From: Hymenobacter monticola
GTDB lineage: Bacteria > Bacteroidota > Bacteroidia > Cytophagales > Hymenobacteraceae
Reading direction: 5' to 3'
Length of the DNA stretch: 15,253 bases
Assembly: GCF_022811645.1 (NCBI RefSeq)
Contig: NZ_CP094539.1
Span: 1-15,253 of the forward strand
Below the pieces are notes generated by a model. That model worked only from the letters and a program-made list of their open reading frames with translations, searched no databases and had not been told where the DNA came from. Shown here piece after piece: positions 1 through 15,253 of this stretch; position 1 is the stretch's first letter, and each line of letters starts with the position of its first letter. The translations under genes and the position numbers were made by a program.

Positions 1-105
1 GCGGATGCTCGGCCAACGCTGTTTTGCGTGACAAAATATTTGAAAGATGGCAAACGCAAAATCACCATCACCTATGATGACGCACTGAATCCAACACCTT
101 CATAG
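1..105 (+). CDS. C-terminal fragment of an unknown protein
   Basis: Frame 1 is open from the window edge to a TAG at 103-105, giving 34 residues that end in LNPTPS. The fragment has a lysine-rich strand-like stretch (KYLKDGKRKITITYDD), which looks like the end of a beta-rich domain, but it is too short to assign to a family. The strong hairpin terminator 22 nt downstream supports a real gene ending here. The start and most of the gene lie outside the window. Confidence 0.6.
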   Translation, partial: ADARPTLFCVTKYLKDGKRKITITYDDALNPTPS

Positions 106-126
106 TCAGCACTAAAATGAAATCAC

Positions 127-175
127 GAGGGTATTCATGAAGCATTGGAGTGCTTATGAATACCCTCTTCGTTTT
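127..175 (+). terminator. Rho-independent terminator after the left-edge gene
   Basis: A perfect 12-bp stem, GAGGGTATTCAT (127-138) with ATGAATACCCTC (156-167), continues through AAGCA/TGCTT (140-144/151-155) with one bulged G and a 6-nt loop. CTTCGTTTT follows. It separates the truncated left gene from the protease gene at 202. Confidence 0.85.
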
Positions 176-201: not shown

Positions 202-801
202 ATGAATGTCACCCTACCATCTTTCTTGTTTTTTTCCATTCCCTCGTTGGTGTACTGGTATTTCTCAAAAAGAAAAGGGCTCCCTCGCGCTGAAATATTT
301 CTCAGGTTAGGTTGGACCAGGGGCACTAGTCGCTACTACTGGTGGGCCATCGGCTTAGGACTGTTCTTGGCTGCAGTTGGCACTTTGGTGTTCTATTCAG
401 GGGTCATTCCCCATGATTTTTACAAAACACAAGGCACGGGAGCCGTTTACTACGCCACTTGGCACGCCAGCATTAGCACTTTTTTTCTGGCGCTGCTCCG
501 AGAGGCGATTGTAGTAGCGCTGGGGGAAGAGGTCTTTTTTCGGGGCTTTTTGGGAGGGTTGCTGATGCGAAAGTTTGGGTTTGTAAAAGGCAATGCGATA
601 CAACTGTTATTGTTCTTGCTGCCACACTTACCCATCGTATTTTTACTCAGTGCCCGGATTTGGCCTTTAGCGATGCTCTCGGTCACCTCATTCGGATGGA
701 TTGCTGGCTGGCTGCGCCACCGCTCGACGAGCATTTTCCCTGGTTGGATAATGCACAGCCTTGGAAACGCAACAGGCGCATTACTAGCCATGAGCCATTA
801 A
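202..801 (+). CDS. CPBP family intramembrane metalloprotease
   Basis: A 199-residue polytopic membrane protein. The three motifs of the CPBP (CAAX protease and bacteriocin-processing) family are visible: EEVFFRG with E109, E110 and R114; F138 followed by H142 (FLLPH); and H185 with N189 in IMHSLGN. Members are membrane-embedded glutamic/metal proteases that cleave within or next to the bilayer. In bacteria they are linked to bacteriocin maturation or immunity, or to membrane-protein turnover. Hydrophobic segments lie near residues 5-21, 47-66, 90-108, 132-150 and 155-170. The ATG has no clear Shine-Dalgarno, as is common in Bacteroidota. The gene stands alone between the terminator at 127-175 and the minus-strand cluster that ends at 830. 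The substrate is unknown; calling it an immunity protein would be speculation. Confidence 0.9.
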   Translation: MNVTLPSFLFFSIPSLVYWYFSKRKGLPRAEIFLRLGWTRGTSRYYWWAIGLGLFLAAVGTLVFYSGVIPHDFYKTQGTGAVYYATWHASISTFFLALLREAIVVALGEEVFFRGFLGGLLMRKFGFVKGNAIQLLLFLLPHLPIVFLLSARIWPLAMLSVTSFGWIAGWLRHRSTSIFPGWIMHSLGNATGALLAMSH

Positions 802-8643: not shown

Positions 8644-9327
8644 TTACAAGCGGTCGAGTTTATCGCAAACTGCCTCGATGTGGTCAAGGCCATATAATAG
8701 GTCCGCTTCATCCACCCCCATCCATTGAAAAAGGGTTTTGATGAGGCCGTACTGCTGTCGAACGTAGGCGCTGCTAATGGCGGCCCCACCGACCTGGAAA
8801 CAAATGGGCTCGTGGTGGGCCATGCGGTTGCGCACGTCGTTCACCTGCGCCAATTCGTTAAATATCAGCGTCTGGTTGTACTGAATCAGGGGCGTACTGC
8901 TGGGCTTGGCGGGAAATATCTGAAGCAGGGTTTGGTGCGCCGCATAGAACTGCGGCTGCGCGAACAGGTAGCGCCACAGGCCGAAGTCCATCTCAGCCAC
9001 CAGTTTATGATGCGTGTACAGTGGTCCCAATCGCCGGATACCGGTGCGGATGACATCCGCCGTTTTCCGGCACCTATTCGTGTCGAATATGCCGCCAGGG
9101 GCCACGGCATTGCGAAGCCAGTCACTGCCCAATCGGGCCGTATAATGCGCGTCCACGGCGTTGCGCAGGGCGATTTCAAAGCAGCTGACCACCGTGTACA
9201 ACTCCTGCGACAAGCGCAGGTTGAGCCGGTAGAGCATCATGGCCTTTTTCGTATTGTTGCCACAGGCGCGCACGTAGCGGCCTAACCGGGGAGCAGAGAT
9301 AATCTGCTCAAAATCTGCGTATTTCAT
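8644..9327 (-). CDS. Abi_2-like abortive-infection protein
   Basis: A 227-residue protein resembling the Abi_2/AbiD-AbiF phage-exclusion family (Pfam PF07751). Typical features are LSQELYTVVSCFEIALRNAVDAHY (residues 39-62, an E-x-x-L-R-N helix), MDFGLWRYLF (113-122) and DVRNRMAHHEP (164-174). The last contains R166-N167-x-x-x-H171, the Rx4H signature of HEPN ribonucleases. Family members stop phage growth, probably by cutting RNA when infection is sensed. It is a compact single-protein candidate with no obvious antitoxin. The start ATG at 9325-9327 has no strong Shine-Dalgarno. It lies in the cargo region between the plasmid backbone and the recombinase, upstream of the 106-residue gene, and the two could form an operon. 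Confidence 0.75.
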   Translation of the reverse strand: MKYADFEQIISAPRLGRYVRACGNNTKKAMMLYRLNLRLSQELYTVVSCFEIALRNAVDAHYTARLGSDWLRNAVAPGGIFDTNRCRKTADVIRTGIRRLGPLYTHHKLVAEMDFGLWRYLFAQPQFYAAHQTLLQIFPAKPSSTPLIQYNQTLIFNELAQVNDVRNRMAHHEPICFQVGGAAISSAYVRQQYGLIKTLFQWMGVDEADLLYGLDHIEAVCDKLDRL

Positions 9328-9621: not shown

Positions 9622-9661
9622 AAGACGCCCGGCCTACTCATTAGAGCAGGCCGGGCGTCTT
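9622..9661 (-). terminator. Bidirectional terminator after the recombinase gene
   Basis: A perfect 14-bp stem, AAGACGCCCGGCCT (9622-9635) with AGGCCGGGCGTCTT (9648-9661), and a 12-nt loop. On the minus strand a T-run (TTTTTGTGC) follows, so it ends the recombinase transcript, whose stop lies at 9714. Confidence 0.8.
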
Positions 9662-9713
9662 AGTTTCGTCTCTTAACATAACATCCGATTTAAGACAAGA
9701 CAACTCACTGATT

Positions 9714-10283
9714 TTAAGAAATTTGTCTTTCAATCTCCTGACGGTAACGCTTGACGCTGGCGCGGCTAATGCCGGTAAGGGTCACAATTTCAGCCACTGA
9801 TAAGCCCCGCTCTAAAGCCGTGGCCACCTTTGATAGCTTCTCGGCGTCGCGCCCGGTGGGCCGGCCCAGGTGCTTCCCCTGCTGCTTGGCCAGCTCAATG
9901 CCGGCCAAGCTCTTCTGCCGGTTGTTCTCGCGCTCGTACTGGTTGAAGGAGCTGAACACTCCAATAATCATCTTGCCCGCTGGGGTGCGCGAGTCGATGC
10001 CCAGGTCGAGCGCCCTAAAGTGTACGCCGCGCCGATTGAATTCCTCCACCAATTGAATGGTGTGCACGGTATTGCGGCCAAGTCGCGCCAGGCGGTTCAC
10101 CACCACCACGTCACTTTCGCGCACGGCGGCTAGCAATTCGTCGAGGGCCGGGCTCTGGGTCCGCGTGCCGGAAACTTTCTCCTGAAAAATGCGCGTGCAG
10201 CCCGCTTGGGTGAGGTCTTCCACCTGCGTGGCTAGGTTTTGGTCGGTGGCGGAAACGCGGGCGTAGCCGAAAGTCTGCTGCAT
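9714..10283 (-). CDS. Serine recombinase (resolvase/invertase family)
   Basis: A 189-residue small serine recombinase. Catalytic features: YARVS with nucleophile S11, LARLGRN (residues 65-71) with the conserved arginines, GKMIIGVFSSFNQYEREN around E117-R118, then GKHLGRPTG and a C-terminal helix-turn-helix (about 160-183, LSVAEIVTLTGISRASVKRY). It would bind paired inverted sites, make staggered cuts and rejoin DNA for cointegrate resolution, inversion or integration. Directly upstream lies an imperfect inverted repeat that contains a TAAGTTTG -7 box on the minus strand, so the enzyme probably represses its own gene while bound at its recombination site. No transposase is present in the window. 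As the only recombinase here it may serve plasmid multimer resolution. Confidence 0.92.
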   Translation of the reverse strand: MQQTFGYARVSATDQNLATQVEDLTQAGCTRIFQEKVSGTRTQSPALDELLAAVRESDVVVVNRLARLGRNTVHTIQLVEEFNRRGVHFRALDLGIDSRTPAGKMIIGVFSSFNQYERENNRQKSLAGIELAKQQGKHLGRPTGRDAEKLSKVATALERGLSVAEIVTLTGISRASVKRYRQEIERQIS

Positions 10284-10336
10284 GGCTCAATAAGTATGGG
10301 TCACAAACTTACATTACGGAACCCACTTCTTGAGCC
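10284..10336. promoter_or_regulatory. Candidate res site / operator of the recombinase
   Basis: GGCTCAATAAGTATGGGT (10284-10301) is an imperfect inverse match to ACCCACTTCTTGAGCC (10321-10336). CAAACTTA (10304-10311), between the arms, reads TAAGTTTG on the minus strand, a TAnnTTTG -7 box 20 bp before the ATG. The overlap of arms and promoter fits the usual self-repression by resolvases at res. Confidence 0.5.
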
Positions 10337-10378
10337 ACTGGAAAGGCCTTCATGACAATGAATCGCTACGCTGACTTA

Positions 10379-10414
10379 GTGGCTCAGAAAGGTGCACCTT
10401 TCTGACGCAGCCAC
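10379..10414. repeat. Perfect 20-bp palindrome with matching flanks
   Basis: CAGAAAGGTGCACCTTTCTG (10385-10404) is a perfect palindrome. It is flanked by GTGGCT (10379-10384) and AGCCAC (10409-10414), the right flank offset by ACGC. GTGGCTCA resembles the arms of the inverted repeat at 10284-10336, so this could be a second recombinase-binding subsite. The rest of the 208-bp gap before 10492 shows no gene. Confidence 0.6.
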
Positions 10415-10491
10415 TGCCACTCTCAATTTGGTGCACTTGTCATACGCTACCTTATTTGGGTAAACGCTTGGCTGGCGCTCAGGTCGGTTAC

Positions 10492-11203
10492 TCACAGGTG
10501 TTTTACACGACCTTCATATTTAGCGTATAATGCCTCATTACTGGGGCCATCCACGTTTTGGCTATGATAGATGGGGAGCGTTGCTCCCTGCGCAGCGGCT
10601 AGTTTCATGGCTTCGGTGGCAATCGTATTGACGAGCAGAATGCCCGCCATTGACGACACGGGGCCCGTCAGATGTTCGCCAATCTGCATGAGGCCATCCC
10701 CGGAAGGCACACCATTATCAATTACCAGGTCTGCTAACTCGTACAACTTCTGGCCACTCGCATGGCGGGAAGGATATTGTCGGGATTGCGTTAGGGACGT
10801 AATAGCAATGGTTTTGACCCCTTCTTGTTTGGCCCGCATCGCCAGCTCGATGGGCAGCGCGTTCCGGCCCGAGTTGGACACGATGAGCAAGACATCGGTG
10901 GACCGGATATCATATTTGGCCCATAGAATATCCGCTAGCCCGCTCACCCGCTCGATAGCGCCGCCGCGCCCCACTTGCCGACAGTACCAGGTCATCCAGG
11001 ACCGTGTTGACGTTGGCCAAGCCACTGGCCCGCGTGAACAACTCCATCGCCACCATTTGCGAGTGCCCCGTGCCAACCGCGTGAATCATGTGCTCGTGGA
11101 CAATGGCGTGGGCGAACCACTCCGCCGCCGCCGTGATTTGGGGCGCTTGGCTAGTGGCCAACGCGAGCAGCTGTGCATTGATTTTTTCGACGTACTCGAA
11201 CAT
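10492..11203 (-). pseudogene. Frameshifted SIS-domain protein (UPF0309 type)
   Basis: Two reading frames together make one phosphosugar-isomerase-like protein of about 237 residues. The N-terminal frame starts at 11203 with MFEYVEKINAQL, VGTGHSQMVAMELFTRASGLANVN. The C-terminal frame carries YDIRSTDVLLIVSNSGRNALPIE, IAITSLTQSRQYPSRHASG, ELADLVIDNGVPSGD and ends EGRVKHL*. This matches the UPF0309 SIS family, including the ISNSGRN phosphosugar loop. The frames join in a CGG-rich stretch near 10958-10980, where ERVSG lies in one frame and LDDLVLSASGA in the other. A single extra base (or two missing) accounts for the break. It is either a pseudogene or a sequencing error in a GC repeat. Both halves are well conserved, so the damage is recent or artificial. 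The enzyme is expected in the cytoplasm, acting on a phosphorylated aminosugar or sugar. Confidence 0.8.
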
Positions 11204-14561: not shown

Positions 14562-14942
14562 ATGGCAAAGCAAGGAGTTCCAACCGAAAAGATGATTCAG
14601 GACTTAGGAAAAGTCGTGAGTCACCCTCAGTTCCAAAGCATTGTTCAGGAATTAGAGGAAACTCCCGCTCCTCAGCGGCGGAGTAAGGCCAAGCAGTTAG
14701 CTTCTGTTGACGAGCTTAAACGCCGTGGTATCCCGGTGCCTTCCACAATGCGGTTTACAACCCGCATGTTTGAAAATCCGACGGCCCCAACAACTGAGTT
14801 TGACTTACTGGACACGTTTGACCCGGCTAGTGAGCGGGTATCTACCTTGCAGCAGTCGGAATTAGTGGCCCCTACGTTCTGCATCACCGTGGGAGTGGGA
14901 GAGCTAATCTATATCTGTGCTTCCCTAGGCGATACTATCTAG
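14562..14942 (+). CDS. Leader-plus-core-shaped protein; possible RiPP precursor, copy 1
   Basis: A 126-residue protein I cannot assign firmly. The N-terminal 70 residues form a charged helical region with HPQFQSIVQELEETPAPQR and a hinge ELKRRGIPVPSTMRF, which resembles nitrile-hydratase-like leader peptides (NHLP) of modified peptides, in which a GI-x-(V/L)P element ends the leader. A low-complexity linker follows. The last 21 residues, from T105, hold FCITVGVG, Y-I-C and SLGDTI, with C107, C119 and several Thr/Ser, shaped like a core. A homologous gene starts at 15035, in tandem. TAAGTTTC (14526-14533) is one mismatch from a -7 box. No modifying enzyme is in the window. It may instead be an ordinary small protein of an unknown family. 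Confidence 0.6.
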   Translation: MAKQGVPTEKMIQDLGKVVSHPQFQSIVQELEETPAPQRRSKAKQLASVDELKRRGIPVPSTMRFTTRMFENPTAPTTEFDLLDTFDPASERVSTLQQSELVAPTFCITVGVGELIYICASLGDTI

Positions 14943-14952
14943 AGAACATCTG

Positions 14953-14990
14953 CCAAATCGGCCTAGTGCATATGCACTAGGCCGATTTGG
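14953..14990. repeat. Perfect 38-bp palindrome between the tandem genes
   Basis: CCAAATCGGCCTAGTGCAT (14953-14971) is followed without spacer by its exact reverse complement (14972-14990). It lies 11 bp after the first gene's stop and 44 bp before the second gene's ATG. No long T-run follows (TGTAATAGTATTT). It could be an attenuator that sets the ratio of the two products, a terminator, or a recombination site. Confidence 0.93.
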
Positions 14991-15034
14991 TGTAATAGTA
15001 TTTCTCCACCTAGCCCCATAAACAGAACAGTTGT

Positions 15035-15253
15035 ATGAACCAGGTTCTAGATACCGAGGATATGATGGCAACGCTACGTGACGTCAGCGCATTTGCCGAA
15101 ACGCCAGCATTCCAGGCTTTGCTGCAAGAATTAAAGGACACACCGCGGCCGCAACGGCAAGATTTTGTCAAGTCATTCGTCCTGCAAAAAGGCGCGTTAG
15201 AAAAAAGGGGCATCCAAGTTCCCGAGGACATGATTATCCAACGTTCCAAGTTT
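15035..15253 (+). CDS. Leader-like protein, copy 2 (truncated by window edge)
   Basis: The frame from ATG 15035 is open for 73 codons to the window end. It is homologous to the first protein: TE(D/K)M near the start, P-x-FQ-x-x-x-QEL-(K/E)-(D/E)-TP-x-PQR in the middle, then (E/K)-x-RGI-x-VP-x-x-M-x-x-x-x-x-x-F. The first protein's C-terminal core-like part is not reached here, so whether the second copy has one is unknown. It is in tandem with copy 1, separated by 92 bp containing the 38-bp palindrome. Confidence 0.7.
   Translation, partial: MNQVLDTEDMMATLRDVSAFAETPAFQALLQELKDTPRPQRQDFVKSFVLQKGALEKRGIQVPEDMIIQRSKF

Follow-up and report, generated by a model that had tools for sequence, protein, structure and literature searches.

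Two paralogous small genes and a CPBP-type protease gene on a Hymenobacter plasmid: probably a rare, mobile peptide-and-protease unit

Results

Three genes across the ends of a plasmid contig

The DNA analysed here (the window) is an entire contig, G000:C6, of 15,253 bases, in a genome of 7 contigs and 6.12 Mb. Two adjacent small genes, which we call A and B, lie at its right end, and gene B runs on across the contig ends; a third gene, C, follows at the left end. The features are as follows.

14562..14942, + strand: gene A, an ATG open reading frame of 126 aa with a helical N-terminal domain, a linker and a hydrophobic two-Cys tail (homologues P0002 and P0009–P0014)
14562..14771, + strand: gene A residues 1–70, ordered N-terminal domain common to B (helices 8–19, 22–33, 36–46 and 49–54; strand 63–70)
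14772..14870, + strand: gene A residues 71–103, variable linker of low confidence (from structure prediction and conservation)
14871..14939, + strand: gene A residues 104–126, hydrophobic tail PTFCITVGVGELIYICASLGDTI with two [FIL]C[AIV][ST][LVI]G motifs (C107 and C119)
14953..14990, unstranded: perfect 38-bp palindrome between A and B, two 19-nt arms with no spacer
15035..15253, + strand: gene B codons 1–73 of 107, helical domain common to A (ATG at 15035)
1..105, + strand: gene B codons 74–107 and stop, continuing from 15253, with the conserved beta-hairpin PTLFCVTKYLKDGKRKITITYD at 13–78
120..174, unstranded: imperfect inverted repeat between B and the protease gene (19-nt arms, 84%)
202..801, + strand: gene C, a 199-aa CPBP (CAAX-type, Rce1-like, PF02517) intramembrane protease with EEVFFR, FLLPH and HSLGN present

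The 38-bp palindrome may be a transcript-end or processing hairpin, and the inverted repeat downstream of B appears to be terminator-like.

The original prediction regarded gene B as truncated by the window edge. It is only the linear write-up of the contig that cuts the gene, and the joined ends give one frame of 107 aa. Sequence comparison indicates that the contig is probably circular, with base 1 joining base 15253, since the frame of B stays open across 15253/1 up to a stop at window positions 103–105; since a database protein (P0003, also 107 aa, one residue different and 99% identical) spans the joined gene at full length; and since a profile match ends at 15253 (model position 75) and picks up again at window positions 1–99 (model position 76). 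The longest contig carrying the gene A protein in the protein database has 15,313 bases, as would be expected of a circle assembled with a short overlap.

Pieces of the window between about 2.5 and 8.6 kb, amounting to 31% of its length, are 86–87% identical to two small Hymenobacter plasmids, and the same region encodes a Rep3 replication gene, a type IV coupling protein and a DUF5712 gene; the contig is thus a plasmid of Hymenobacter type. Elsewhere on it, an Abi_2-like gene (PF07751; 8644–9327, − strand), which also matches the PADLOC model PD-T4-5 (1.6e-14), is by its sequence a possible phage-defence gene. A SIS-domain gene (10492–11203, − strand) is apparently split into overlapping frames (10492–11076 and 10910–11203), each matching SIS_2, suggesting either a sequencing error or a frameshift.

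A common N-terminal half and different C-terminal ends

That A and B share their N-terminal half, including the motifs from which the likeness was first recognised, was borne out by all three kinds of comparison. BLASTP aligned the two proteins at 37% identity over 65 positions (E 1e-10, as a single comparison), their Smith–Waterman score of 99 compares with 50 for the best of 2000 shuffles, and profile–profile comparison gave a probability of 96.9%. A and B are paralogues over their N-terminal 65–70 residues. The tails are another matter: A-to-B similarity is weak in the window, where 80 of 5000 shuffles reach the score, and none was detected by shuffling in the second locus described below, that of Cruoricaptor ignavus (1565 of 5000). 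What all A and B proteins do have in common at this point is a Thr-x(1,2)-Cys that opens the tail (14 of 14).

For A, AlphaFold2 predicts an ordered N-terminal part of four helices and one strand (block means of 75–84 pLDDT over residues 11–60), followed by a stretch below pLDDT 50 (residues 70–104) that corresponds to the poorly conserved linker, and a tail hairpin of low confidence (mean pLDDT 58). The hydrophobic tail and the positions of its two cysteines, C107 and C119, stand as originally described. For B, on the other hand, the prediction from six sequences is a single compact domain of four helices and three strands (mean pLDDT 85), in which the C-terminal end is a conserved charged beta-hairpin; the protein is hydrophilic over its last 34 residues (GRAVY about −0.5). 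A leader–core layout, as initially proposed for both genes, fits A, with its ordered N-terminal part, free linker and two-Cys tail, and is not supported for B, which is predicted to be one compact domain.

All eight gene A proteins carry two [FIL]C[AIV][ST][LVI]G motifs. Their order separates a window-type lineage (the window and P0002), with FCIT[VI]G followed by ICASLG, from the other six, Cruoricaptor-side proteins, with ICASLG followed by LC[VI][TS]VG. Aligned across the two lineages, the tails are weakly alike (93 of 5000 shuffles reach the score). We considered a circular permutation of the tail between the lineages and set it aside: such a swap could have occurred, but two motif copies that vary independently account for the order equally well.

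Conservation is highest at the C-terminal ends. Among the six Cruoricaptor-side A homologues, the mean identity between pairs rises from 0.58 in the linker to 0.815 in the leader and 0.89 over the last 20 residues (tail), and the window-type pair is identical at 61 of 73 leader, 15 of 24 linker and 21 of 23 tail positions. Among six B proteins the hairpin reaches 0.90, compared with 0.50 for the N-terminal part. This is the opposite of a fixed leader with a variable core, although a single peptide family may also have a fixed core. Directly before the tail, the Cruoricaptor-side A proteins have GG (P0014), GA (P0013) or GS (P0009–P0012), from its sequence a possible leader-cleavage site; no GG-type pair occurs there in either window-type A protein, and none of the six B proteins has a GG.

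Gene C and a second locus in Cruoricaptor ignavus

Cruoricaptor ignavus belongs to the class Flavobacteriia and Hymenobacter, the type of the window plasmid, to the class Cytophagia. Both loci that could be read have the order A-B-C. At the Cruoricaptor locus (L004), A lies at 9641–9964, B at 9977–10327 and the CPBP protease gene at 10344–10925; the gaps of only 12 and 16 bases suggest that A-B-C is most likely one transcript there. A candidate −7 motif, TATCTTTG, which we take to be of the Bacteroidota type, lies upstream of A in this locus. The corresponding gaps in the window are 92 bases (A-B) and 96 bases (B-C), with palindromes between the genes, so that the inference of a single transcript is limited to Cruoricaptor. 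Between window and Cruoricaptor, identity is 35% for A, 50–53% for B and 32% for C.

Both C proteins score well above the Pfam cut-off for PF02517 (55.7 bits in the window and 49.9 in Cruoricaptor vs 22.4), and both keep EExxxR, FxxxH and HxxxN, the motifs by which catalytic members of the CPBP family are defined. Gene C stays below the NCBIfam cut-offs for Mrt (myxosortase) models, the best being MrtS (E 3.5e-11; 43.6 bits vs 130).

In Cruoricaptor the three genes are bracketed by copies of a repeat (left at about 8939–9310, right from about 10938) that has 13 matching pieces in the genome; with a copy on either side, one inter-repeat piece holds just A, B and the protease gene. The surrounding stretch (L004, 1846–20265) is a gene-cassette array with eight repeat copies that share a sharp common start. 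Its other contents include a YefM/YoeB pair (PF02604, PF06769), a piece of an IS110-type transposase, and a D12-class DNA adenine methylase gene (PF02086) beside a NOV_C-domain gene (PF13020); metal-related, TonB-receptor and transposase genes lie in the wider surroundings.

Occurrence

Among 5.8 billion proteins, clustered at 90% identity, we found 14 distinct proteins, eight A and six B, the window's own included; the search required shared short words, so remoter relatives may have been missed. It returned two relatives of A and six of B, and a profile of A found eight proteins, of which six were new. The pair A-B also seems to recur on the contigs of P0002 with P0004 and of P0010 with P0007, each couple being placed on one contig from the equal size of its longest contigs (3575 bases each and 1449 bases each, respectively).

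Among the genomes searched, Cruoricaptor ignavus, with one locus, is the only one besides that of the window to carry the pair clearly. In overlapping samples, matches were found in 1 of 198 relatives and 1 of 204 members of the window's family (in both cases the own genome only), in 5 of 395 genomes of the phylum (the own genome and four weak matches, E 7e-4 to 5e-3), and in 4 of 395 and 3 of 296 genomes of the Cruoricaptor class and family (Cruoricaptor itself with three and two weak matches). We attributed all these weak matches to chance and set them aside. Three scans of viral contigs gave no match, A, B and C had none in a plasmid collection from which records of the window's own genome may have been left out, no PADLOC family matches any of the three, and searches of open-licence papers gave no paper on the A/B family. 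The unit is rare and patchy, as expected of mobile cargo.

Search for modified-peptide machinery

The original prediction interpreted A and B as precursors of ribosomally made, modified peptides (RiPPs) and placed any modifying enzyme or transporter to the right of B. The next gene there is the CPBP protease gene, and no such enzyme or transporter was recognised. Pfam searches of 19 open reading frames recognised no modifying enzyme or exporter on the whole 15.25-kb contig, with five of the nine frames in one subset giving no family. Nor was one recognised near the Cruoricaptor copy, in a stretch of 20.3 kb that extends about 10 kb to either side, where 13 frames were searched with Pfam and the rest judged by eye. 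Within these stretches, biosynthetic genes were thus recognised in neither of the two readable genomes, which speaks against the RiPP reading by the distance of about 15 kb set in the original prediction. LanC-like and YcaO domains were each found in neither of the two whole genomes (E 0.001), the same searches matching 1 (LanC) and 5 (YcaO) of 14 other genomes. C39 peptidase searches gave two matches in the window's genome, on contig C2, and none in Cruoricaptor, from which it follows that C39 is not a shared requirement. The two C2 matches are neighbours (155154–159141; L033 and L034) and may mark a peptide-export locus.

A resemblance to nitrile-hydratase-like leaders had also been suggested. 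Neither NHLP nor Nif11 models in Pfam or NCBIfam match A or B, and the NHLP model (TIGR03793) matches neither of them nor any scanned homologue at E up to 10. Membership of the family is thereby contradicted, and what is left of the suggestion is that the A profile faintly resembles NHLP leaders: it scores 25.3 (23.6% probability), which none of 200 column shuffles reaches (best 18.3). The score of the B profile is reached by 18 of 200. For comparison, eight NHLP-type proteins gave 45.6 to 182 in a leave-one-out test, in which each was scored against the remaining seven; they come from 12 loci, of which L022 (a near-copy of L021), L026, L027 and L032 were left out, and six of the eight exceed the family cut-off. 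Single A and B proteins scored 11.2–20.0 (single A proteins 13.9 to 20.0), and one of the eight A proteins lies above the best of 97 unrelated natural pieces (18.95); these pieces are single sequences, which suits them as a control for single A proteins and makes them less apt for the A profile. NHLP genes occur in 4 of 149 relatives searched and are absent from the window's genome. In one genome of the same genus (G013:C39, 133249–147918; L021, L025 and L028–L032), seven NHLP-type matches are clustered; of those inspected, several have both a short hydrophobic tail and a GG site.

Discussion

The anatomy of A, B and C is near-certain. As a distant relative has the same three genes as neighbours, they probably form a single rare, mobile and uncharacterised peptide-and-protease unit, and not a classical modified-peptide cluster. 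We hypothesize that A, B and the CPBP protease are a self-contained mobile effector module, a proposal of function to which we give a probability of roughly 40%. A would be the precursor of a small effector, its side chains left unmodified and its tail serving as the active, membrane-seeking end. The dedicated protease C would cut A near the conserved Thr-x(1,2)-Cys and so release or sort the tail; alternatively, C may protect the producer from it. B, with the shared docking domain and a soluble hairpin in place of the hydrophobic tail, would pair with A or keep it silent.

In favour of such a module, the order A-B-C is kept at both readable loci, A-B pairs seem to recur, repeat copies bracket just these three genes in Cruoricaptor, both proteases retain their motifs, Thr-x(1,2)-Cys is present throughout, and the tails are the best-kept parts of both A and B. 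Against it, A and B have no recognised exporter gene beside them, neither protein has an apparent signal peptide (by eye), and the Cruoricaptor genome showed no C39 transporter peptidase. The soluble hairpin of B does not look like the second peptide of a bacteriocin, the A tails of the two lineages are weakly alike, and the model of the A tail is of low confidence. A bolder version would be a minimal, previously undescribed peptide system of the Bacteroidota, in which an unmodified, hydrophobic two-Cys tail sits behind a helical docking domain, the soluble paralogue B keeps guard over it, and the CPBP protease of the unit excises it from the membrane or extrudes it across, with neither a separate exporter nor a maturase; we regard this as rather improbable.

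The main rival is an addiction or phage-defence module, in which the tail of A would putatively harm the membrane of its own cell, B would be a paralogous antidote pairing through the shared domain, and the protease would trigger or quench A. Although we consider it unlikely, it agrees with the plasmid location, with the great rarity and patchy spread of the unit, and with the Cruoricaptor array, where the repeat-bracketed genes stand beside a YefM/YoeB toxin–antitoxin pair and share their array with the DNA adenine methylase and its NOV_C-domain neighbour. However, none of the three genes falls in a PADLOC family, and the surroundings also hold genes of other kinds, namely metal-related, TonB-receptor and transposase genes. 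A protein-sorting pair, in which A and B would be small proteins of an ordinary kind, their Cys-bearing C-terminal part serving as a myxosortase-like sorting or lipidation tag for protease C, draws on the below-threshold similarity of C to the Mrt models and on the Thr-x(1,2)-Cys conserved in both proteins. It is the least probable of the readings weighed here, given that A and B have no apparent signal peptide, that neither has a transmembrane helix followed by an Arg-rich end, and that the end of B is hydrophilic.

Under a classical RiPP reading, A and perhaps B would be leader–core precursors modified by enzymes encoded elsewhere. The leader–linker–tail layout of A, with Cys beside Thr or Ser, and the faint likeness of its profile to NHLP leaders speak for it, as do the two C39 matches on another contig of the window's genome. 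GA and GS can act as double-glycine-type sites, and a GG, GA or GS precedes the tail in all six Cruoricaptor-side A proteins, which is the one new point in favour. Such a residue pair is missing in the window's A and P0002, however, and Cruoricaptor, which carries genes A and B, has no C39 match. Neither the plasmid nor the surroundings of the Cruoricaptor copy yielded a recognisable modifying enzyme, both genomes lack LanC and YcaO, the tails are better conserved than the leaders, and B is predicted to be compact. We therefore hold this reading to be quite improbable and drop the RiPP label for now; a leader-and-tail look alone does not make a RiPP. The effector module, our preferred reading, has the practical merit of compactness: as the unit occurs in two Bacteroidota classes, its substrate, cut site and role are directly testable with three small genes. 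Prokaryotic CPBP proteases are described as largely unexplored (PMC11980579).

Relation to known systems

One likeness is to NHLP precursors (TIGR03793), which share a helical N-terminal part, a Gly-x-x-Pro-like turn and a strand, together with the faint similarity of the A profile; A and B differ in having no match to the model, scores far under those of NHLP-type proteins and no maturase.

By analogy of gene order, the nearest working systems may be operons for bacteriocins that have a CPBP-type gene downstream of two small genes. Precursors of the plantaricin EF type (plnE-plnF-plnI) have double-glycine leaders, and we take PlnI to be of the CPBP family. Here, a GG-type pair is found in six of the eight A proteins (one GG, one GA and four GS), all on the Cruoricaptor side. 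In plantaricin EF, two precursor genes are followed by the immunity gene plnI, and CAAX-motif Abi-family proteins are linked to bacteriocin self-immunity (PMC4467070). The arrangement of two adjacent small genes and then a CPBP gene is the same in both readable loci. Plantaricin has, however, its own exporter and regulators (plnG, plnH and plnD; PMC4467070), and no exporter was recognised here; in addition, the hosts of our unit are Bacteroidota and its B protein has a soluble hairpin.

A CAAX protease inside a bacteriocin locus is also known from Angicin, where SilX is required for bacteriocin activity (PMC9298176). SilX differs in that it is proposed to act on a pheromone of a quorum-sensing locus and gave no immunity, and the abstract mentions no A/B-like paralogue pair (PMC9298176). 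For cutting at a C-terminal end, the precedent is the CPBP protease MrtX, which cuts C-terminal tags in dependence on conserved Cys (PMC11980579). Cys-dependent C-terminal cutting by a CPBP protease is the feature that our unit may share with the myxosortases, whose Mrt models match C below their cut-off. The difference lies in the substrates: a MYXO-CTERM tag combines a transmembrane helix with an Arg-rich end, and dozens of substrates are typical, whereas here the protease stands beside two small neighbours.
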